Shown piece by piece: positions 2-10,442 of a stretch of DNA of 64,000 nucleotides (position 1 is its first letter; each line of letters begins with the position of its first letter). The notes beneath the pieces are model-generated. The model was not told the DNA's origin. It did no database searches and was given only the letters and a program-made list of their open reading frames with translations. The translations under genes were made by a program, and so were the position numbers. Location of the stretch: NCBI RefSeq assembly GCF_000019665.1, contig NC_010794.1, forward strand, positions 124,001 through 188,000, written 5' to 3'. Source of the DNA: Methylacidiphilum infernorum V4. Its GTDB lineage: Bacteria > Verrucomicrobiota > Verrucomicrobiia > Methylacidiphilales > Methylacidiphilaceae.

Positions 2-748
2 ACCTATTTTTTAGGAGAATTATCAAAATTATCTTGGATTTTCGACAGGAAAATTCCTTTTCTTTCCCGTTGTTTCAACCAACTCAGGCAACGGAGAAAG
101 GAAAGGGAAGGAAGTTGGAATCCCTATGCTGGAGAAGAGAAAAAAGAGGAAAATTTAAATCCCAGTCCTTTGCTTGAAAAGTCTTATATTGAGGCTATTG
201 AAAACGGGTATAGCCAACTTCATTCCAAAGCTTTTTTGCCCGACCTAGCCTGCCTTCTTCATAAAGTTCTTTTGAGAGGTTGCAAACAAGGAGAACCGGG
301 TAAATATCGAACGGTTCAGATCCGGTGGACTCCCCGTTTAAGCGGCTCTACGATGGCGCTTTATTTATCCCCGCCCCCGGAGCTAATCAGGCCGTGCATG
401 GAATCCCTCTGTTGTTTTTATGACATGGGGAAGAAGATGCCTCCTCTTGTTGTCATTTCCCTGGTTCATCTTCAATTTGTATCCATTCAACCCTTTGAAG
501 ATGCTAACCGAAGGGTAGCCAATCTTCTTGCTTCCTTGTTTTGGGTGAAGGAAAGATTTTTTCCCTTTCCCTTGCTTGATTTGACAGGCTATTTCGAATG
601 GAGTGCGATGGATTTTCTCTATTATTTTTTAAAAGTGATTCGCCAGGGAGCTTGGGAGGACTGGCTCCTCTATTATTTTAGGGGAGTAGCGATAGAATCC
701 CGGAGAGCTTACCTGTTCCTTAAAGAAACAATTAAAAAAGAATTCTGA
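2..748 (+). CDS. Fic-fold protein, degenerate active site, 5' end outside the window
   Basis: The reading frame is open from base 2 with no stop, so the gene begins upstream. The first candidate start inside the window is a TTG at 170. The early residues (LGELSKLSWIF) resemble the helical N-terminal part of Fic proteins of the Fic_N/Fic type, and the rest aligns with a Fic core. The usual H-P-F-x-D-G-N-G-R motif reads QPFEDANRR (residues 107-115 counted from the TTG), so the catalytic His is Gln and the first Gly is Ala. I do not see the inhibitory S-x-x-x-E-G motif. AMPylation by the standard chemistry is therefore unlikely. The protein may be a non-catalytic Fic, a different enzyme, or a gene starting to decay. 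It stops 77 bases before the export cluster on the same strand; a functional link is only suggested by position. Fic family is sure, activity is not. Confidence 0.7.
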   Translation, partial: TYFLGELSKLSWIFDRKIPFLSRCFNQLRQRRKEREGSWNPYAGEEKKEENLNPSPLLEKSYIEAIENGYSQLHSKAFLPDLACLLHKVLLRGCKQGEPGKYRTVQIRWTPRLSGSTMALYLSPPPELIRPCMESLCCFYDMGKKMPPLVVISLVHLQFVSIQPFEDANRRVANLLASLFWVKERFFPFPLLDLTGYFEWSAMDFLYYFLKVIRQGAWEDWLLYYFRGVAIESRRAYLFLKETIKKEF

Positions 749-825: not shown

Positions 826-3039
826 ATGAGGGCAACCAGTAGTATTAACCTCGACTCTTTGAATCCCAAGGAAGTGGTTTCTAGGCTTGTCGATTTTTCG
901 CACAAGGCCAAGACCATCCAAGAATATCTCTGCTTTCACGGAGAAACTCTCTTGTCTGTTCTTGCAGGGATAGGGTGCTTGTACTGGTTCATAGAAAAGG
1001 AAAAAGTAGAAATCGTTTTAGAGCGGGGAGAGCTTAAAGGGATTGCCGCATCGGTAGCGGAAAAAGAGAAATTCCTTCCCATCCTTTACCAGGTTTTAGA
1101 GAACAACTCCTACCGGGTTATGACCGGAGAATCGTTGGCTTCGGTTAATTCTGAAAACCTCCTCGAGCATCATTTTATTCCGATCAAACCGTTTGATTAT
1201 CCTCCCTTTGTTGTTCTCCATTTCCTGTTTCCAGCTTGGGAAAAGGATTTAGCCCCGTTACGGAAAGAGCTTCTCTTTAAAGGAGCTGGATTGTTGGAAG
1301 AGTTTTTTAAAAAAATGGGGCCGAAGGAAGGTTCTACAAAGGCTTCTTTTGGCCTATCTTCTTATATCCAGCTCCTGGAAGCTCTTTCTGGAGAATATGA
1401 CATAGGAAGGCTTGGCCATGTTGTGGCCAATTATAGCAGGGAAATAGCCGGCTGCGATAGAACAACTCTTTTTGTCGCCAAGGACTATAAAGGTTTGCCT
1501 GCCGACTCCTATCAATCCAATGCGAATTTTTACTGCCGGTTTCGTTTGCTTTCCTGTAGCGGGGTTAAAAAGCCCTCGGATAAGACCGAACAAGCAAAAA
1601 TTTTAGGAGAAGTGGGCTTAACTTTGGCCTTTCTTGCCAATGAGCATCTTTTCCCGGAATCGAAAATAAGAAAGCGGTTAAAAATTACCTCCTCATCCCC
1701 AAGGAATGCAAAAGAAAGACCCACAAAAGAAGCCCATGAAGGGGAAAAGAACGGATCAATACCAAAAAAGGCTTCTTCTCAAAAAGAAGGGTTTTCTTTT
1801 TTTCCTCAAGCTCCCCGGACAGGCTGCCCCCTTGCGGATAGGAATGACAACAGGACTAGTGAAAACCACAAACCGAAAGCACGACAAGGAATCCGGATAG
1901 GATTCTCCAGAAGAGATCCGGCTCGAATCCTCTCATGGCCACAGCCGGTCAGGAAATATTTTGAATCTCTACCCATGAATTGGATCGCTTCGCTTCCCCT
2001 AGTAGATCGAGGAGGTAGGGTCTCGGGGTTTTTGCTCTTTGAGGGAAGAGAAGCTCCTGAGCCTTCGACTGAACTTCTTGATTCTTTAAGAAATTTGTCA
2101 GGGCCTGTGGGCCAGTCCCTTGGAATGGCTTTATCGATAGATAGAGAGTGGGTTTGGAATTTTATTTTCAAGTTCCTCATGAAGGGAGAACGGGGAGAGA
2201 AGAAGAAATTTTTTTTGAAGTCTCTAGGCGGAGTCCTGGGCTTAGTCCTTCTCCTTTTGATTCCTGTGCCTTTCAAAATCAAGGGGAAAGCTTTTATTAG
2301 GCCCACCCTTGAGATAACTGTCCCTGCACTTGTTTCCGCCAGGATAACGCAAGTATTTGTTCGCATCGGGGATGGGGTTAAAAAGGATGACCTTTTGCTC
2401 CAGATGGATCCTACTGAACTCGTACTCAAGTTAAAGGAGGCCGAACAGGATTATAAAAGGCATCTGGCCGAAGCGGACTTGGCGATGAATCTCCGTAAAG
2501 AAACCGAGATGCAGGTTGAAAAACTGAATGCACTCAAAGCTGCAACTACGGCTCAAAAACTGTATTGGGATTACAAACAAACGATCGTCCGGTCTCCCAT
2601 TGATGGGATTATTATGGGGCCGGCTAACCTTCCCTTCATCCAGGGGAAAGTTCCCCAGGTAGGCGAAGTGCTCATCGAGATCGCCGATCCCAGAAGTTGG
2701 GAAGTGAAAGTGGTGCTTAGGGAGCAAGACCTTATCATGATTAGGAGATATTTCCAGATGAACAACCATCCAATCAAGGTTCAACTCCGCTTGGCCGCCG
2801 ATCCGGCCGCTACTTACTCATTAAAGCTTAGTTCTGGAAATATGCTCATTCGAGGGTTAGAAGCGGAAGGAGAGAAATATGAATTTAGCATTGTCCTTCC
2901 ATGGAACAGTTCGAGTATCGATCCTGAGTTGCTCAAAAAGGGACTTCGAGGACAAGCAGCAATTGAATTAGGAATGAAGCCTGCAGCCGAAGTCTTATTC
3001 AGGGACTTCATTAACTACATGAAAATCCAGCTCTTATAA
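826..3039 (+). CDS. GAF-like / HlyD membrane-fusion hybrid protein
   Basis: This 737-residue protein has a cytoplasmic N-terminal half and a periplasmic C-terminal half joined by one membrane segment at about residues 465-482. The N-terminal half looks like one or two GAF-type sensory modules (about 30-160, and 185-440). The second is interrupted by a charged, low-complexity stretch at about 283-360. After the membrane segment come a lipoyl/biotinyl-like hairpin (about 490-527, containing RIGDGVKKDDLLLQ), a helical hairpin, and a second half-motif VRSPIDGIIMG. Such halves are the hallmark of HlyD/RND adaptor subunits. It is the first gene of a four-gene cluster with an adaptor, a TolC homologue and an M50 fusion, all on the plus strand with small gaps or overlaps. 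The likely role is an inner-membrane adaptor whose assembly or gating may be sensed through the GAF-like part. Substrate unknown. Confidence 0.72.
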   Translation: MRATSSINLDSLNPKEVVSRLVDFSHKAKTIQEYLCFHGETLLSVLAGIGCLYWFIEKEKVEIVLERGELKGIAASVAEKEKFLPILYQVLENNSYRVMTGESLASVNSENLLEHHFIPIKPFDYPPFVVLHFLFPAWEKDLAPLRKELLFKGAGLLEEFFKKMGPKEGSTKASFGLSSYIQLLEALSGEYDIGRLGHVVANYSREIAGCDRTTLFVAKDYKGLPADSYQSNANFYCRFRLLSCSGVKKPSDKTEQAKILGEVGLTLAFLANEHLFPESKIRKRLKITSSSPRNAKERPTKEAHEGEKNGSIPKKASSQKEGFSFFPQAPRTGCPLADRNDNRTSENHKPKARQGIRIGFSRRDPARILSWPQPVRKYFESLPMNWIASLPLVDRGGRVSGFLLFEGREAPEPSTELLDSLRNLSGPVGQSLGMALSIDREWVWNFIFKFLMKGERGEKKKFFLKSLGGVLGLVLLLLIPVPFKIKGKAFIRPTLEITVPALVSARITQVFVRIGDGVKKDDLLLQMDPTELVLKLKEAEQDYKRHLAEADLAMNLRKETEMQVEKLNALKAATTAQKLYWDYKQTIVRSPIDGIIMGPANLPFIQGKVPQVGEVLIEIADPRSWEVKVVLREQDLIMIRRYFQMNNHPIKVQLRLAADPAATYSLKLSSGNMLIRGLEAEGEKYEFSIVLPWNSSSIDPELLKKGLRGQAAIELGMKPAAEVLFRDFINYMKIQLL

Positions 3040-3080
3040 GAATAGCTTTGTAAAGATCGCTAACACCGTGGGATTGCCGG

Positions 3081-3974
3081 ATGATCCCAGATAAGACTAT
3101 GATTTTGATGATTATTTTCCTCTTATTTTGGGGTAACGCCCTTTGGGGTTCAATGTCCGAGTCTACACTGCCGTTTGATTTATCCCTACAGAGAGATTTC
3201 CCGTTAGTTCCAGAGATTGAATCGAATCGGGTTGGTTCTTTGAGGGGTGTGCTCTTGCCCATAGAAGATGTTCGTTTGTGTTCGAAAGAACCGGGGATTC
3301 TTGAAGGATACACCGTGGAAGAAGGTCAGGTGGTTCACAAAGGAGACATTGTGGCCAGGCTTAATGCAGAGGAGGAGACAGCCGAAGTAGAAAAGGCCAC
3401 CGCCTTGATCAAGGGGACAGAGGCAGAAATAGAACACGCACGAGCCGAATTCGAGAGGATTGAAGGGCTCTTTCGAGAGGGGATTTCGAGCAAAAAGCAG
3501 TACGAAGAAACAAAGTTCCAGTTGAGCAGCGCTCAGAGCAAGTACGATCAAGCCAAGGCTTCCTTGAGTGCAGCCAAAAGCAAGCTTGAATCGAGAGTTA
3601 TTCGTTCACCTATTGATGGAATTTTTTTTAAGAAACTAAAAAATCCGGGAGAATCAATAGAGCGGTTCGAGGCCATCGGCAGGGTCGTCAATACTAAGGA
3701 ACTACAAATGGTAGTTTTTTGTGATGCCAAGTATTTTGGGAAAGTCAAGGTTGCCGACCAATTGCAGGTTGAAATCATAGATGGCCCTTCTTCGGGCAGG
3801 CAAACCCTGGCTACTGTTGTGCACGTAGATTCCATCCTTGATCCGATCAGCGGTACGTTCAGGGTCAAGCTCCTCATCCAACCTACCGATTTTATCGTTG
3901 CGGGCATGTCCGCCCTTCTTTTGCTTCCCGAAGAAGGAACGGCAAAGAGAAATGAACTTTCAAAAAGCCCTTGA
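3081..3974 (+). CDS. HlyD/RND-type periplasmic adaptor
   Basis: A 297-residue membrane-fusion protein. A hydrophobic N-terminus (MILMIIFLLFWG) serves as signal or anchor. It is followed by a lipoyl half-motif (EEGQVVHKGDIVARL), a coiled-coil hairpin rich in Glu/Ala/Lys (about residues 105-170), the second half-motif VIRSPIDGIFF, and a beta-barrel domain. This order is that of RND and ABC efflux adaptors. It is shorter than typical RND adaptors (350-400 residues). It sits 41 bases downstream of the GAF/HlyD fusion and runs into the TolC-like gene. No RND pump gene accompanies it, so it probably bridges the other cluster members to the outer-membrane channel. Family call is firm; cargo unknown. 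Confidence 0.85.
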   Translation: MIPDKTMILMIIFLLFWGNALWGSMSESTLPFDLSLQRDFPLVPEIESNRVGSLRGVLLPIEDVRLCSKEPGILEGYTVEEGQVVHKGDIVARLNAEEETAEVEKATALIKGTEAEIEHARAEFERIEGLFREGISSKKQYEETKFQLSSAQSKYDQAKASLSAAKSKLESRVIRSPIDGIFFKKLKNPGESIERFEAIGRVVNTKELQMVVFCDAKYFGKVKVADQLQVEIIDGPSSGRQTLATVVHVDSILDPISGTFRVKLLIQPTDFIVAGMSALLLLPEEGTAKRNELSKSP

Positions 3975-3991
3975 TTTTTGCCTATGGATTT

Positions 3992-5464
3992 ATGAAGAGA
4001 AAAATATTTTCGGTTTTCTATACGGTATCGCTCATCCTCGTATGTCTTGGAAAAATACCCTTGTTTTTCTCTTCTTTATTTTCCATGGAATCCCCCCAGA
4101 TGTTTCCCGAGAGTAATCCTTCCCTGGGTCCAGCTCTTTCCGCCCCTCAACTCCTCTCCTCTATCCGTTCCCCTAAGCGTCTTTCCCTTCCGCAGACGGA
4201 CTCAACCTTGGAACAATGGGACTTAGAAAAAGCCGTTCAAAGAGCCCTTGATGCCAATCCGGATGTGACAGCCGCCCGCAAGGCTATTGAAGAGCAGCAA
4301 GGAGTCAAAATGGAATTCAAGGCTAAACTCTACCCTAGGGGAGGGCTTGTATACAATTTTCAAAGGGAACAAAGCTCCCTTCTCATGTTCCTCCCTACGG
4401 TTCCCGTCTATCCCCTTACTCGAACGAGTTGGTTTGGAGCAATCCAAGTAAGGCAAACCCTTTTAAATCTATCTGCAGTTAAGGAAGCAAGGCAACAAAA
4501 GGAACTCCTTGAAAGGGCGATCTGGTCGTCCATGGATGTGGCTTTAAAAACAGTAGCTAAAACCAAGCAGGCTTTTTATCTCACCCTTTACCGGAGCGAG
4601 GTTGTTAGAATCCGGGAGGAGTTGCTTGAAGTTTCCAGGCTTATCATGCAGTCTAGTCGGAGGCTGGCTGAATCCGGAGAAATACCCAACTACCAGGCTT
4701 TGACCGCAGAATCCGAATATAGAACGGCTCAAGCGGATCTTTTTCAAGCACGATCCCAGATGATCCAAGCGCAAGAACAGCTAAGGATGCTTTTGAATCT
4801 GCCGAGTACAAGCGAAAAGGAGCCGTTGCCTCTAAAAGGAGAACTCGAGTTGCTTTCCTTCGACGTTCCCTTTGAGGAGGCCTTGAAAATCGCCTTGGAA
4901 AAACGGACGGATTTGAATGCAGCTAGATATGCACTCAGGGCAGCCGATGCTTCCGTTGCCGCTGCAAAAGCAAGTTATTATCCCAACGTTGACCTTCTAT
5001 TGCAGTATGAAACGATTAACGATATTTATGTTCTTTATCCAAAATTCGGGTGGACTGCCGGTGCGCAAGGTCAATGGGGTCTTTTTAACATCATGGAAAA
5101 CGAGGGTAAAATTAGGCAGAAGCAAGCCCAGAAAAATATAGCTGAAATAAGGTTACAGCAGCTTCAAATGGATATTCCGGCACAACTTAGGCAGTATTAT
5201 GCTCAATTCAAAAAGGCGAAAGAGGCCGTAGCCTCTCAAGAATTGTCCGTAAAGGCGGCGGAGCAAGGATTGAATCAAGCCGTGAATCTTTTTAAAAGCG
5301 GAGAGACGGGATGGGTGCAGGCGGTAACAGCAAGGCAGGCCTTGCTTAAAGCCAGGTTAGGTTTTCTTGAAGCTTTGTACAATTACAATACGGCTCTTGC
5401 GGATTTAGAATACGCGGTTGGGGGACAGTTTCCTCCGGGTTATCATGCACCTCCTTCCCCTTGA
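3992..5464 (+). CDS. TolC-like outer-membrane efflux protein
   Basis: This is an OEP/TolC-family channel with two repeated alpha-helical segments. The first repeat begins near DLEKAVQRALDANPDV and the second near FEEALKIALEKRTDLNAAR, as in all members of the family. I prefer the ATG at 3992, which gives a classical signal peptide (MKRKIFSVFYTVSLILVCLG). A TTG at 3971 would overlap the preceding stop codon as TTGA and add seven residues. The protein forms the outer-membrane duct for the cluster. The next gene can begin at a TTG that again overlaps this gene's stop codon, so translational coupling is plausible. Confidence 0.88.
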   Translation: MKRKIFSVFYTVSLILVCLGKIPLFFSSLFSMESPQMFPESNPSLGPALSAPQLLSSIRSPKRLSLPQTDSTLEQWDLEKAVQRALDANPDVTAARKAIEEQQGVKMEFKAKLYPRGGLVYNFQREQSSLLMFLPTVPVYPLTRTSWFGAIQVRQTLLNLSAVKEARQQKELLERAIWSSMDVALKTVAKTKQAFYLTLYRSEVVRIREELLEVSRLIMQSSRRLAESGEIPNYQALTAESEYRTAQADLFQARSQMIQAQEQLRMLLNLPSTSEKEPLPLKGELELLSFDVPFEEALKIALEKRTDLNAARYALRAADASVAAAKASYYPNVDLLLQYETINDIYVLYPKFGWTAGAQGQWGLFNIMENEGKIRQKQAQKNIAEIRLQQLQMDIPAQLRQYYAQFKKAKEAVASQELSVKAAEQGLNQAVNLFKSGETGWVQAVTARQALLKARLGFLEALYNYNTALADLEYAVGGQFPPGYHAPPSP

Positions 5465-7725
5465 AAGGAACTTTAAAGCTCCATCTTGGTGTTGAGGATT
5501 CAACCCAAAATGAAGATGGAATTGAGATTGATCCAATGAGGGAGCGAACAGAGCAAGAACTTTTGGCTTTGGTCCTGGTTTCTACAAGGAAAGATCTAGT
5601 GGGGAAGTTGCAACTCTTTGCCGGCAAAGAATTCTACGTGGTTAAAGATCCCCTTTCTCTCAATTATTTCCGCTTTCCTCCTGAAGAGTATGATTTGGCA
5701 CAGCTGATCGATGGGAAAAGAAGGATAGGGGAAATTCTTTTGCTTTTCCATAGAAAGTATCCTCATCTCCAGATTACTGCTGAAGAAGTGATTTCCTTTC
5801 ATAAGGACTTGATACAAAAGGGGTTGGTAATTCTCCCCGCTCGATCCTTTGTCAGTGAAGTAACCAAGAAAAGGCCCTTTTCTCTTTTCGGTTTATGGGC
5901 TCAACTTATTCATAACTTGATCTTTTTTAAAATTCCCCTCCTCGATCCCAACGATAAAATCGAAAAAGTGGTGCAATTGTTTTCTTTTGTTTGGTCGAAA
6001 ACGGGAATAACCCTAACCGTTGCTTTTTGGATGATCACCGTTTTCTTCCTCTTTATAAACGAGGAGGCTTTTAAGACTAACGAGGTCAATTTTTTTTCTC
6101 CTCAAAACTTCTTTCTTTTATATCTAGCCACCGGCCTTGTTAAAACCTTTCATGAGTTTGGCCATGCCCTGAGTTGTAAAAGGTTCGGTGGAGAAGTTCA
6201 TGAAATGGGTATCGGTTTTCTTTGTTTTGTCCCCGTAGGTTACGTCGATGCCTCCGATACGTGGATGATTGAAGATAAAAGAAAAAGATTATTTGTTGCC
6301 GCTGCCGGGATATACATGGAATTAACGATCGCTGCCTTGGCTTCCTATTTTTGGGTGTTTTCTCCCCTAGGCCTAGCCAAGAATCTCGCTTTCAATGTGA
6401 TGGTGACCGCCAGCGTCACCACCCTGTTGTTTAATTTAAATCCCTTGATGCGCTTTGACGGCTATTATGCTCTTTGTGATCTCTTGGAAATACCCAACTT
6501 GCGCGAAAAAGCCATTGCTTTTTGTTCGGCAAAAGTCCAGAGACTGCTTTTTGGCTATCGCAATCTCATGCAAGAAGAACTTTTCCAGGATGAAAGCAAG
6601 GGAAAGGTTTTTATTCTTTATGCCATCGCGGCCTATTTGTACATGGTTTACCTGATTTATGCGGTAGGAGGTGTGCTGTTTGCCAGGGTTCTCAAGCCTT
6701 ATGGGTTAGAAAATGTTGGATTTTTATTTGGAATTTTTTTTGAAGCTTCTTTTGCCCTTCTGCTTGTGAGCCGGGTGCTTTACGATGCCTTCTCTACGCA
6801 CAATAAAGCTTATATCGTGAAAATAGAAAATGTTTGGATTCGGCTTTCCAAGGTTACCGCTTTTCTTTGCCTTTTGCTTTCCTTTCTCTTTTTTGTCCCG
6901 GTACGGGAAAAGATCAGTGTTCAAGCTGTGGCCAGGGCAGAAAAAGGACAAAGTTTATCCAGTCCTTCGGGAGGGGTTGTTGAAGAAGTCTATGTCCGGA
7001 ACGGTCAATGGGTGAAAGCCGGAGAGCCCTTGTTAAAACTCAAAAATCCGGAGATAGAAACAGAAGAAAGATGGGAAAGACTAGAATTAGCTTCCCTGAT
7101 GCTCGATCTTTCCCCTCAACATGGAAGTAGGGAAGTCAAAGAGAAAGAAAAGGGAGCCATCGCCTCCCTTTCACTCAATAGAACGATTTCTAGGTTGCGG
7201 TGGGTAGAAAAACTCAAGGAAGGCTTGCTCATTCGGGCAAATGCAGAAGGGATGGTTACGACTCCCGATCCTCAAGCGTTGGTCGGCAAGTATTGTAAAG
7301 CTCATGAAGTGATATTAAATATAGCGGAGACAAAAACCCTGTATCTGTGGATACCTCTTGATGAGTCCCAGACTAAAGTCGTTGCGGTGGGCAACAAGAT
7401 AAAAGCGGCATGGTTGGCAACGGCCGAGTATTTTTATACGACGATTGATAAAATCACTAAAGGAGATTGCCATACTGAAGATCTTCTGCCCGCCCTGTTC
7501 GTCCGTAACGGGGGGCCTGTACCCAGCGTGGATTTTGGAAATCCAAGCGCCGTTTTAAAAAAATTTCCCGTATTTTTTGCCCTTGCCCCTGTCCCTCCCT
7601 TGAAAGGTGAATTGTTTATTGAGGGCATGCGGGCAAAAGTCCGCATTTATGGCAAGAAAACGACGATCGGAAAGCGGCTATGGAACAAGCTCTGTCTTTT
7701 TTTCCTTAAAAAGCAAGAAGGCTAA
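5461..7725 (+). CDS. PqqD-like / M50 metalloprotease / HlyD fusion protein
   Basis: A 754-residue multi-pass protein. The first ~130 residues resemble a PqqD-type winged-helix peptide-binding domain. A polytopic M50 (site-2-protease-like) core follows, with HEFGH at residues 231-235 and a second metal-ligand region NLNPLMRFDGYY (325-336, D333). After more membrane segments comes a lipoyl-type HlyD module (about 498-530, containing RNGQWVKAGEPLLKL). The zinc-site residues look intact, so proteolysis within or near the membrane is possible. By analogy with PqqD-containing RiPP systems, it could bind a peptide and cleave or hand it to the adaptor/TolC duct; that is inference. Start: TTG 5461 overlaps the upstream stop; ATG 5536 (residue 26) is the alternative. 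A strong terminator lies just downstream. Confidence 0.8.
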   Translation: MKGTLKLHLGVEDSTQNEDGIEIDPMRERTEQELLALVLVSTRKDLVGKLQLFAGKEFYVVKDPLSLNYFRFPPEEYDLAQLIDGKRRIGEILLLFHRKYPHLQITAEEVISFHKDLIQKGLVILPARSFVSEVTKKRPFSLFGLWAQLIHNLIFFKIPLLDPNDKIEKVVQLFSFVWSKTGITLTVAFWMITVFFLFINEEAFKTNEVNFFSPQNFFLLYLATGLVKTFHEFGHALSCKRFGGEVHEMGIGFLCFVPVGYVDASDTWMIEDKRKRLFVAAAGIYMELTIAALASYFWVFSPLGLAKNLAFNVMVTASVTTLLFNLNPLMRFDGYYALCDLLEIPNLREKAIAFCSAKVQRLLFGYRNLMQEELFQDESKGKVFILYAIAAYLYMVYLIYAVGGVLFARVLKPYGLENVGFLFGIFFEASFALLLVSRVLYDAFSTHNKAYIVKIENVWIRLSKVTAFLCLLLSFLFFVPVREKISVQAVARAEKGQSLSSPSGGVVEEVYVRNGQWVKAGEPLLKLKNPEIETEERWERLELASLMLDLSPQHGSREVKEKEKGAIASLSLNRTISRLRWVEKLKEGLLIRANAEGMVTTPDPQALVGKYCKAHEVILNIAETKTLYLWIPLDESQTKVVAVGNKIKAAWLATAEYFYTTIDKITKGDCHTEDLLPALFVRNGGPVPSVDFGNPSAVLKKFPVFFALAPVPPLKGELFIEGMRAKVRIYGKKTTIGKRLWNKLCLFFLKKQEG

Positions 7726-7769: not shown

Positions 7770-7801
7770 GGGTGAAATTTCACCCACTTTTTAATTTTTT
7801 T
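7770..7801 (+). terminator. Rho-independent terminator of the export cluster
   Basis: A perfect inverted repeat, GGGTGAAATTTCACCC (7770-7785), is followed closely by a T-rich tract (7788-7801). It lies 45 bases after the M50 fusion gene and before the TonB receptor. It therefore separates the four-gene cluster from the receptor as transcription units. Confidence 0.85.
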
Positions 7802-7817: not shown

Positions 7818-10442
7818 ATGCTTTTTTCTTTTCTCCCTGCTATTCGGCCAGTAGCGGGAATCGGCATTGTTGGCATAGTATTTGCTCAAAGCTTCTCCGC
7901 CATGACTGTTTTGGTCCGAATTACTCTATTGACCATAGGGATTATTTCGCTTATGACCCCCTCTCTATTCCCGGGACAATCTATGGATGGTCAAACGGGT
8001 TCACCAACCGACAATCCAAGTTCATTCAACCGCAAAGATCGGTCAACCAACAAAGAGGATAAGACCGGGACCGCCAAGCAAGAGAAACCTTTGGCCGAGA
8101 AAAATGACCGTTCAATAGCCTTGGAAGGGAGCCAAAGTGGAGGAGAAACCTTAAAGGCCGATCCCATCCAACCCGGTGCCGGTTATACCCAAAGGACACT
8201 AGAAGAAACCGTCAGTCAACTGCCCGAGGTTCAGGTTGTTGCCGTTACCCCTTTACCGGGAATGGGCCAACCCATGGAAAACCTGCCGGGCAACTATCAG
8301 TTAGCCAAAGGAGAGAGTTGGTTAAGACAGGAGGAATTCAGCTTGCCGCAGTTCATGGAAAGGAACATGGCCAGTGTTAACGAAGTCAATCTTAACGGCA
8401 ATCCCTTTCTTCCCAATATCAATTACAGGGGGTTTGCGGCTTCGCCCATTCCCGGGACTCCTGTCGGCATTTCGGTCTTCTACGATGGGGTGCGTATCAA
8501 CGAACCTTTTACAAACAATGTTTTGTGGGATTATGTTCCCCAACTGGCTGTTTCGACCATGGAAGTCGTTCCCGGCTCAAACCCGATTTATGGACAAAAC
8601 ACGTTGGGAGGGGCGCTGGTCATCCAAACCAAGGATGGGAGGCATAACCCCGGATCCATGATCCAGGACTATGCCGGTGCTTGGGGGACTAATGATCTCG
8701 AGTTTCAACACGGGGGATACAAGGGGAACTGGGACTGGTTTTTGGCGGGGAACTGGTTTAGCCAACAGGGATGGAGGCAAGAGAGTTCAAGCTATGTCAA
8801 GCAACTCTTTGGGAAAATCGGATACCATAACGAGACTACGGGGACCGACGTCCACCTTGAATATACAGGAGCGGATAACGAGCTCAATATCCTTGGTCCT
8901 ACACCGCTAGATATGTTAGGTGGGCCGTTTGGCAACTCGATGATTTACACCGGCCCTAACCCCCAGCAGGATAATCTTAATTTTGTCAATCTCTATGGTA
9001 CTCAAGCCCTGGGAGAGGAGTGGACCCTGGGAGGCAATGTTTATTTTAGGGAATCGGATTTTTCCTTTAACAACGGCAATATCGCTAACGATGTCGTCCA
9101 GTTTTTAGGGTTTAATTATCCTTTGAATGCCCAGGCTATAGTGGGCTACAACCCGGATGGCACCCCTCAATTCGGACCTGCAGGGGAGTGGGATTTCGGC
9201 AACATCAACCAAACCGGAGCAGGGGCTAGGGTACAGGGACAATGGGATAAAAAGTTCTCCACGATGGAAAATTACCTTGTTTTGGGTGCCAGTTACGATT
9301 GGTCTCAAAGCATCTTTAATTCGGGTTTTTACCCGGCAGCAATGGGAGCTAATTATAATAATATCCTCATCCCTGGTTTTCCTTTCCAACAGCAGTTTGT
9401 CGTTCCCGGGTTTTCGCAGTTTGTGGGCTTATACCTGACGGATACTTTCTCCCCTACTCCTTGGTTTCATCTTACCGGAGCTTTAAGAGACAACTATGCC
9501 CAGATGATTATTGGAGGATTTGGCGTAGATAATAATGGGCAGACTGTCTCATTAAGCGCAGCGGAGAGATTTCAACAACTCACCCCTGCTGCGGGTTTTA
9601 CTTTCCAACCCCTTGCGGCACTAGGGCTGAAGGAGCCAGCAATTGAAGATTTGACCTTTTATTTCAATTACAGCGAAAGCTTTAGGGCTCCGATGCCCGG
9701 AGAAATCGTTGGAGCCAACCCGGCCATTCCCGTGATTTTACCTATCGCCCAACTGGGGGATCCTTCCTTGGCTCCTGTTCTAGCCCAAACCTTTGAAAGT
9801 GGTTTTCGAGGGACAATACAACCCGGGGCAATTTCATGGGCCCTTTCTTTTTATCGAACGGACATTTCTAACAACATCGTTTTTCAGAATACGGGGCATT
9901 CCAGTGCCGGGTTTTTTCAAAATGTAGCCGCTCAACAAAACCAAGGGGTGGAAGTGACAATCCAAGGAAACTATAAAAAACTGGGTTGGTTTGCCAACTG
10001 GTCTTTCCTGGAAGCGACATTCCAATCTTTCCTTTTTCTGGAAAACGCGATCAGCACCTCTGTTCCCGTTTCTCCTGGGGACCGGCTGCCTAACTTGCCC
10101 GAGCAGATGTTTAAAGCGGGGCTCAACTATCAAATTTTTCCCTGGTGGTTGGTTTCTCTTGACTTCCAGTATTATTCAAGCCGCTTTCTTTATGGTGACT
10201 GGGCCAACATGTATCCTATGATGAGGGGTTTTAGCGTTCTTAACATCCAGAGTTATGTAACGCTAAACAAGTACTTGCAACTTTTTGTCTTTGCTACCAA
10301 CGTGTTCAACGAGTTTTATGCGGGCGCAGGCTTGATCAGCCAGAACGTTTTTACGGGAGCCCCTAATGGGGGTACTATCGTCCCCTTTATCACTCCTGGT
10401 TCTCCCTTTGGAATATGGGGTGGGGCAAGGTTTACTTTTTGA
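7818..10442 (+). CDS. TonB-dependent outer-membrane receptor
   Basis: An 874-residue protein with a plug domain beginning near residues 135-250 (ending around GGALVIQTKDG), then a long beta-barrel with many aromatic-flanked strands and a terminal Phe (GARFTF), as required for BAM insertion. An internal ATG at 7902 gives a clean signal peptide (MTVLVRITLLTIGIISLM), so the true start may be 7902 rather than 7818. About 100 polar, low-complexity residues separate the signal from the plug. TonB receptors import metal chelates, vitamins or oligosaccharides using the proton-motive force through TonB. Nothing here fixes the ligand. No iron-type operator is visible upstream, unlike the second receptor at 14913. 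It is separated from the export cluster by a terminator. Confidence 0.88.
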   Translation: MLFSFLPAIRPVAGIGIVGIVFAQSFSAMTVLVRITLLTIGIISLMTPSLFPGQSMDGQTGSPTDNPSSFNRKDRSTNKEDKTGTAKQEKPLAEKNDRSIALEGSQSGGETLKADPIQPGAGYTQRTLEETVSQLPEVQVVAVTPLPGMGQPMENLPGNYQLAKGESWLRQEEFSLPQFMERNMASVNEVNLNGNPFLPNINYRGFAASPIPGTPVGISVFYDGVRINEPFTNNVLWDYVPQLAVSTMEVVPGSNPIYGQNTLGGALVIQTKDGRHNPGSMIQDYAGAWGTNDLEFQHGGYKGNWDWFLAGNWFSQQGWRQESSSYVKQLFGKIGYHNETTGTDVHLEYTGADNELNILGPTPLDMLGGPFGNSMIYTGPNPQQDNLNFVNLYGTQALGEEWTLGGNVYFRESDFSFNNGNIANDVVQFLGFNYPLNAQAIVGYNPDGTPQFGPAGEWDFGNINQTGAGARVQGQWDKKFSTMENYLVLGASYDWSQSIFNSGFYPAAMGANYNNILIPGFPFQQQFVVPGFSQFVGLYLTDTFSPTPWFHLTGALRDNYAQMIIGGFGVDNNGQTVSLSAAERFQQLTPAAGFTFQPLAALGLKEPAIEDLTFYFNYSESFRAPMPGEIVGANPAIPVILPIAQLGDPSLAPVLAQTFESGFRGTIQPGAISWALSFYRTDISNNIVFQNTGHSSAGFFQNVAAQQNQGVEVTIQGNYKKLGWFANWSFLEATFQSFLFLENAISTSVPVSPGDRLPNLPEQMFKAGLNYQIFPWWLVSLDFQYYSSRFLYGDWANMYPMMRGFSVLNIQSYVTLNKYLQLFVFATNVFNEFYAGAGLISQNVFTGAPNGGTIVPFITPGSPFGIWGGARFTF

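Follow-up and report, generated by a model that had tools for sequence, protein, structure and literature searches.

Results

The four-gene cluster and its domains

The window analysed here is a stretch of 64,000 nucleotides (genome positions 124001-188000) of the single 2,287,145-base contig of Methylacidiphilum infernorum, a heat- and acid-loving bacterium with its kin in the Verrucomicrobiota. Positions 826-7725 of the window are occupied by four genes on the forward strand coding, in this order, for a GAF-HlyD fusion, an HlyD adaptor, a TolC homologue and a PqqD-like/M50/HlyD fusion (M50-HlyD), the latter being the constant component of the system (Table 1). A 41-bp gap separates the first two genes, and at the other two junctions the genes overlap by 4 bp. 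A first-pass annotation of this DNA had described the tight packing of four same-strand genes and the lack of an ABC, RND or MFS pump in this run, and both statements were confirmed, with all frames and domains found as described. The TTG starts of the TolC and M50-HlyD genes are doubtful, the alternatives being ATG 3992 and ATG 5536; ATG 3992 is likely the real start of the TolC gene. The hairpin behind the cluster had been called a strong terminator; both the hairpin and the T-rich stretches are present, but we would call the site no more than plausible, and the region has no excess of terminator-like sites over chance (20 versus 15.4 +/- 3.7). Directly 3' of the hairpin, at 7818-10442, lies a gene for a TonB-dependent receptor which is probably not part of the system.

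Table 1 Features of the probable exporter locus, in window coordinates.
Feature	Position	Strand	Details
Fic-family gene, 3' part	170-748	+	gene start at genome 123789, before the window
GAF-like/HlyD fusion	826-3039	+	737 aa; HlyD_3 and Biotin_lipoyl
HlyD/RND-type periplasmic adaptor	3081-3974	+	297 aa; RND_mfp 4e-40; signal peptide-like N-terminus
TolC-family outer-membrane channel	3971-5464	+	497 aa; OEP/TolC 7e-45
PqqD-like/M50/HlyD fusion	5461-7725	+	754 aa; Peptidase_M50 2.6e-10, HlyD_D23 2.5e-11
Putative PqqD-like leader-binding (RRE-type) domain	5536-5826	+	residues 26-122; three strands followed by three helices
M50 catalytic core	6100-6498	+	HEFGH 6151-6165, NPLMRFDG 6439-6462
HlyD/MacA-like periplasmic adaptor domain of the M50 fusion	6898-7665	+	residues 480-735; MacA/MexA-like in the model
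Terminator-like hairpin with T-rich tail	7770-7785	+	6-bp hairpin (-9.7 kcal/mol) with two T-rich stretches behind it

Structure prediction of the 5461-7725 product, which the first-pass annotation had suggested as a check, gave a good model (pLDDT 86.9) composed of a PqqD-like domain, a membrane M50 core and adaptor parts. The strands and helices of the PqqD-like domain follow the order known from PqqD-type leader-binding domains. The earlier assignment of this domain is further upheld by matches to PF05402 in 14 of 16 members and by the profile, which reaches PqqD 3G2B (6.5e-4) and lasso-peptide leader-binding proteins; taken alone, the window protein gives a weak match (E 0.1). The M50 part is modelled as a helical membrane core containing HEFGH at residues 231-235 and NPLMRFDG at residues 327-334, i.e. 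both the HExxH and the NPxxxxDG motif of M50 (site-2) proteases are located in membrane helices. HExxH is intact in all 105 M50-HlyD relatives; a loss of protease activity in some of them was considered and rejected, as the three apparent exceptions read HEFSH or HEFWH.

The model of the GAF-HlyD fusion has two alpha/beta domains in its N-terminal part, one at residues 14-136 and the other, which contains a disordered insert, at about 190-410; a single transmembrane helix (458-478) and a periplasmic barrel-sandwich adaptor (480-720) follow. The GAF-like character noted earlier is marginal in the window's 826-3039 protein (GAF_2, E 0.11) and clear in its orthologues (E 1e-6 to 1e-13), and the family profile matches solved GAF-containing sensor kinases. 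Since the HlyD part fills the lists, fold searches with the whole models returned adaptor proteins only and are silent on the PqqD, M50 and GAF folds either way; sequence profiles were therefore used for these parts.

Leader-bearing proteins next to both copies of the cluster

Upstream of the window, two genes starting at genome positions 110226 and 119967 (L134 10226-13921 and L008 5967-9593) code for proteins of 1231 and 1208 aa with the N-terminus MKKKLRIESLEKRYLMHAAP, a beta-repeat stalk and a phosphoesterase domain following the stalk. These candidate cargo genes lie outside the window, 5-15 kb upstream of the cluster and with the Fic-family gene intervening, and all genes of this series, from the 1231/1208-aa pair over the Fic gene to the four-gene cluster, are on the same strand. 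The pair is 93-100% identical over the first 400 alignment columns and near-identical at the C-termini, but only about 42-60% identical in the middle, a mosaic that points to recombination or gene conversion. In G012, which belongs to another genus, GAF-HlyD, HlyD and TolC come after a relative of the two proteins; the leader end of this relative is off the contig.

A second, paralogous copy of the four genes is located outside the window at about 508.5-515.3 kb of the genome (L009). On its 5' side we found genes for two small leader proteins, an HprK-like kinase, a YydG-like radical SAM protein and PqqD. The small proteins, 114-136 aa in length, carry ...EELESRQLFAAAAVPHH and ...EGLESRQLFAAAAVPHH near their N-termini, and the second locus is kept, including both of them, in 4/4 congeneric genomes. 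The likely cargo of this locus is the two small proteins beside the radical SAM protein, the HprK-like kinase and PqqD, and that of the window's cluster the two beta-repeat/phosphoesterase proteins encoded at 110226 and 119967.

Alignment of the cluster neighbours yielded the consensus E-x-L-E-x-R-x-[LM]-[LF]-[AS]-[AG]. For motif selection only LE.R.[LMF][LMF].[AGS] was used, and the glutamate at -2, which was not a criterion, is nevertheless present in 37 of 38 leader rows. The motif is N-terminal: it occurs in 25 of 833 N-termini, compared to 1 of the 1967 internal windows, and shuffled sequences gave 0.25. When the own genome was searched for the leader, exactly four were found at E<1e-8 (next 2.6), two beside each M50-HlyD locus; this result required the 19-row leader alignment, as a genome search with one small leader protein recovered only its neighbour. 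On the basis of the N-terminal enrichment and of this search, a chance origin of the LE.R motif was rejected. The leaders have no hydrophobic core, unlike the signal peptides of the cluster's own TolC and HlyD.

The ExLExRxLL[AS] core at the N-terminus relates these leaders to Planc_extracel (PF07595), which matches them, and to LEPR-XLL (NF012209), motifs that share an N-terminal ExLExRxLLA core and occur in large proteins of surface type that lack a Sec signal. The leaders of Methylacidiphilum diverge from these: those on the window side score below the curated cut-offs (19.4 versus 25.5 for PF07595 and 13.1 versus 17 for NF012209), whereas an Opitutaceae leader (L041) exceeds that of PF07595 (29.2). 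The consensus of Planc_extracel is given as RRLxxExLExRxLLA in PMC8567305, which cites Studholme 2004 for its presumed role as a novel export signal and reports the motif in eight of the ten longest Tuwongella immobilis proteins. In the open-licence literature both are known as a motif alone, with no exporter assigned. We also noted a likeness of the LL-[AS]-[AG] end of the leader to double-glycine leaders.

Co-occurrence of leader and M50-HlyD in two phyla

Among 40 relatives, M50-HlyD is encoded in seven of the eight genomes with a leader, compared to a background of 10/40. M50-HlyD is present in 62 of 288 Verrucomicrobiota genomes, and these include 18/18 leader genomes; leaders were found in 0/226 genomes without M50-HlyD. 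The training set of our leader model, A3, came partly from these loci; upon removal of the five training genomes, the result was 13/13 (p=2.7e-10). Nine of the 22 verrucomicrobial leaders are no more than 20 kb away from M50-HlyD, with about 0.2 expected. The 44 of 62 M50-HlyD genomes in which no leader was detected at the threshold used include some HMM misses (L145, L154), and many of them belong to other M50-HlyD clades, perhaps with another job. For the most part, such clades (L043-L069; many Planctomycetota, Prosthecobacter, Chthoniobacter) show no SecA and no leader gene in the vicinity, and they may form a branch with a different function.

For a second test, the public LEPR-XLL model NF012209 was chosen because it is independent of A3, and was applied to 292 genomes of the alphaproteobacterial order of Sedimentitalea xiamensis (L105), 32 of them with M50-HlyD. 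Again, all 17 leader genomes encode M50-HlyD and no leader was found in the 260 genomes without it (p=4e-19); since genomes are related, this and the verrucomicrobial p-values overstate independence, which is softened by the count by genus in the Verrucomicrobiota (13/13, p=9e-9) and by the second phylum. Nineteen of the 20 giant leader frames of this order are on the M50-HlyD contig, 18 at a gap of 1.6-4.2 kb and one at 14.6 kb. In addition, strong LEPR-XLL matches were obtained in all of five proteobacterial genomes reached via M50-HlyD. Judged from sequence, leader and M50-HlyD are tightly linked across the two phyla.

A clade of M50-HlyD proteins without a dedicated SecA

The own genome encodes only one SecA, the canonical one (frame of 1025 aa); the idea of a dedicated SecA encoded elsewhere was rejected, as the genome search returned canonical SecA alone. 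A secondary SecA is absent in 5/5 Methylacidiphilum genomes. Of the other 13 leader-bearing verrucomicrobial genomes, 12 contain a second SecA frame of roughly 570-770 aa, mostly directly beside M50-HlyD, and G133 does not. A tree of 105 M50-HlyD proteins placed the window's protein in a clade of Methylacidiphilum and Opitutaceae-like sequences (11 rows, support 100). None of these rows is SecA-linked and ten have an adjacent leader protein, the eleventh (L040) being on a 4.8-kb contig that leaves no space for one. The survey of M50-HlyD neighbourhoods, also suggested by the first-pass annotation, showed GAF-HlyD, HlyD and TolC to be conserved together; neither an ABC transporter nor a cognate, co-inherited RND transporter was found in the neighbourhoods of the clade's loci. 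As leader and M50-HlyD co-occur where SecA is absent, M50-HlyD, and not SecA, appears to be the best candidate for the leader receptor.

The leader proteins of the SecA-less clade are 110-1,506 aa long (some cut by contig ends), whereas those of many SecA-bearing genomes reach thousands of residues, with leader frames, as open frames rather than proven proteins, of up to 19,216 codons. In view of this length contrast, which is a correlation only, the export of very long cargo may depend on a dedicated SecA. The open frames with leader motifs of 17,000-19,216 codons are from Verrucomicrobiota (G056, G125, G190, G219) and belong, to our knowledge, to the longest bacterial frames.

Discussion

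The first-pass annotation knew of no functional description of such a cluster. This has to be corrected, since a related module was described computationally by Kamneva, Poudel and Ward in 2015 as a secondary SecA_DEAD encoded with M50/HlyD, GAF/HlyD, HlyD and sometimes OEP in planctomycetes, verrucomicrobia and proteobacteria, including META1p2399-2402 of M. extorquens (PMC4452313). In that study, SecA was proposed as ATPase and M50 as pore, the role of the module was called completely unknown, and the text mentions neither Methylacidiphilum nor an N-terminal cargo motif (PMC4452313). The window has M50-HlyD, GAF-HlyD, HlyD and OEP/TolC in common with this module, and neither has an ABC transporter; however, the module is defined by the secondary SecA, which is absent in the window and its clade, and no cargo was named in 2015. 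New here are thus the SecA-less clade and a named cargo, which can likely be assigned because leader tag and machine almost always co-occur. The open-licence literature on LEPR-XLL, Planc_extracel, secondary SecA and Methylacidiphilum exporters contained no paper joining motif and machine. It seems that two orphans, the motif of 2004 without a machine and the SecA/M50/HlyD module of 2015 without a cargo, are halves of one system. Their match would establish how some of the largest bacterial proteins are secreted, and the version in the window shows that the machine can exist without a dedicated ATPase.

We consider the cluster to be, probably, a leader-dependent protein secretion and processing system. 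Comparison of the genomic sequences ties M50-HlyD and its partners genetically to leader-bearing proteins without a Sec signal peptide. The cytosolic PqqD-like domain of M50-HlyD would bind the leader, and the chain would be presented to the membrane M50 site, with a predicted cut near the LL-[AS]-[AG] end. The HlyD part of M50-HlyD, GAF-HlyD and the separate HlyD may form a periplasmic tube to TolC, through which the protein would leave the cell or reach its surface. There is a precedent in the epipeptide M50 protease EpeP, to which both cleavage and export of its peptide have been ascribed (PMC10885120). In most relatives, the dedicated secondary SecA would push the chain; the window's clade has lost or never had this protein, and canonical SecA, or no own ATPase, would serve instead. 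A more far-reaching proposal, which we put forward tentatively and as somewhat short of probable, is that secretion in the SecA-less clade proceeds without an own ATPase, with M50-HlyD acting at once as leader receptor, protease and the route by which whole proteins cross the inner membrane. Canonical SecA or the proton gradient would supply the drive, and the same machine, joined by a dedicated SecA, would be the exporter of the very large LEPR-XLL proteins found in planctomycetes, verrucomicrobia and proteobacteria.

The export machine envisaged in the first-pass annotation survives in part. The lack of ABC and RND transporters, the PqqD-like domain and the intact M50 site agree with it, but the likely cargo is not mainly small peptides: small proteins of 114-136 aa are found at the second locus, but proteins of 1208-1231 aa beside the window and of many thousands of residues in SecA-bearing relatives. 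Nor is the engine gene missing in most relatives: there it is the SecA encoded directly beside M50-HlyD, which the window's clade does not have.

Among the other explanations, a role of M50 as leader peptidase only, with the cargo crossing via SecYEG and canonical SecA and M50-HlyD trimming it and handing it to the HlyD/TolC tube, appears somewhat unlikely to us. It would agree with canonical SecA being the sole SecA of the genome, no second one being found in Methylacidiphilum genomes, and with the invariant M50 site residues. However, the leaders do not have a hydrophobic core like that of Sec signals, and the SecA of SecA-bearing relatives is without the full scaffold domain (PMC4452313), a poor fit to ordinary SecYEG use.

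Slightly less likely again is the original notion of a RiPP-type machine that matures and exports small modified peptides. The PqqD-like domain and the gene content of the second locus, where two small leader proteins accompany a YydG-like radical SAM protein, an HprK-like kinase and PqqD, speak for it, as does the M50 similarity to daptide (NF041824, E 1e-47) and YydH/LiaK epipeptide proteases (6e-12), which share a membrane M50 with homologous core and a leader-cleaving role. Yet the scores are far below the curated cut-offs (162.6 versus 300 for NF041824 and 45.7 versus 225 for NF058609), the window locus has no modifying enzyme, and the adjacent cargo exceeds 1,200 aa and reaches thousands of residues in relatives. 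We know of no HlyD fusion or TolC tube for the epipeptide and daptide proteases, which act on small peptides.

The MacA- and MexA-like adaptor domains might also serve an unlinked small-molecule pump (ABC, RND or MFS), the M50 domain then being incidental; this is very improbable, as the four genes stay together across genera with no pump, the M50 residues are conserved and the leader association would be left unexplained. An envelope-sensing complex, in which GAF senses and M50 cleaves a membrane-bound regulator, could account for the GAF domain and the site-2-protease-type core but is no more probable, given that no conserved regulator gene is nearby, that TolC and three adaptor domains indicate transport and that the leader linkage indicates cargo. 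With type I secretion (HlyB/HlyD/TolC), the proposed leader-dependent system shares HlyD and TolC; type I systems, however, have a dedicated ABC transporter beside adaptor and TolC, which the examined neighbourhoods of the clade's loci do not, and a C-terminal cargo signal instead of an N-terminal leader.

Additional observations at the two loci

The cassette of small leader proteins, HprK-like kinase, YydG-like radical SAM protein and PqqD (L009 1146-4462 and L027-L030) is conserved before the second exporter locus and is possibly a new peptide-modification system. TolC is absent from the locus in G001, G003 and G004; in G004 (L030 9357-11526), the M50-HlyD gene is split into three frames and the rest of the locus is mostly intact-looking.

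A homologue of the Fic-family gene between candidate cargo and cluster (L035 1534-2448) comes after M50-HlyD in the other genus (G012). Because both Fic proteins read QPFxx(A/G)NRR where the catalytic HPFxxGN(G/K)R is expected, i.e. the catalytic His is replaced by Gln, the Fic-family proteins of the two genera are probably inactive or altered enzymes. Finally, the gene at genome 115582-118773 (L008 1582-4773) is chimeric: it codes for a TonB-dependent receptor with a relic of the leader-protein N-terminus before a hydrophobic stretch, the first about 95 residues being 42% identical to that N-terminus (E 1e-17).
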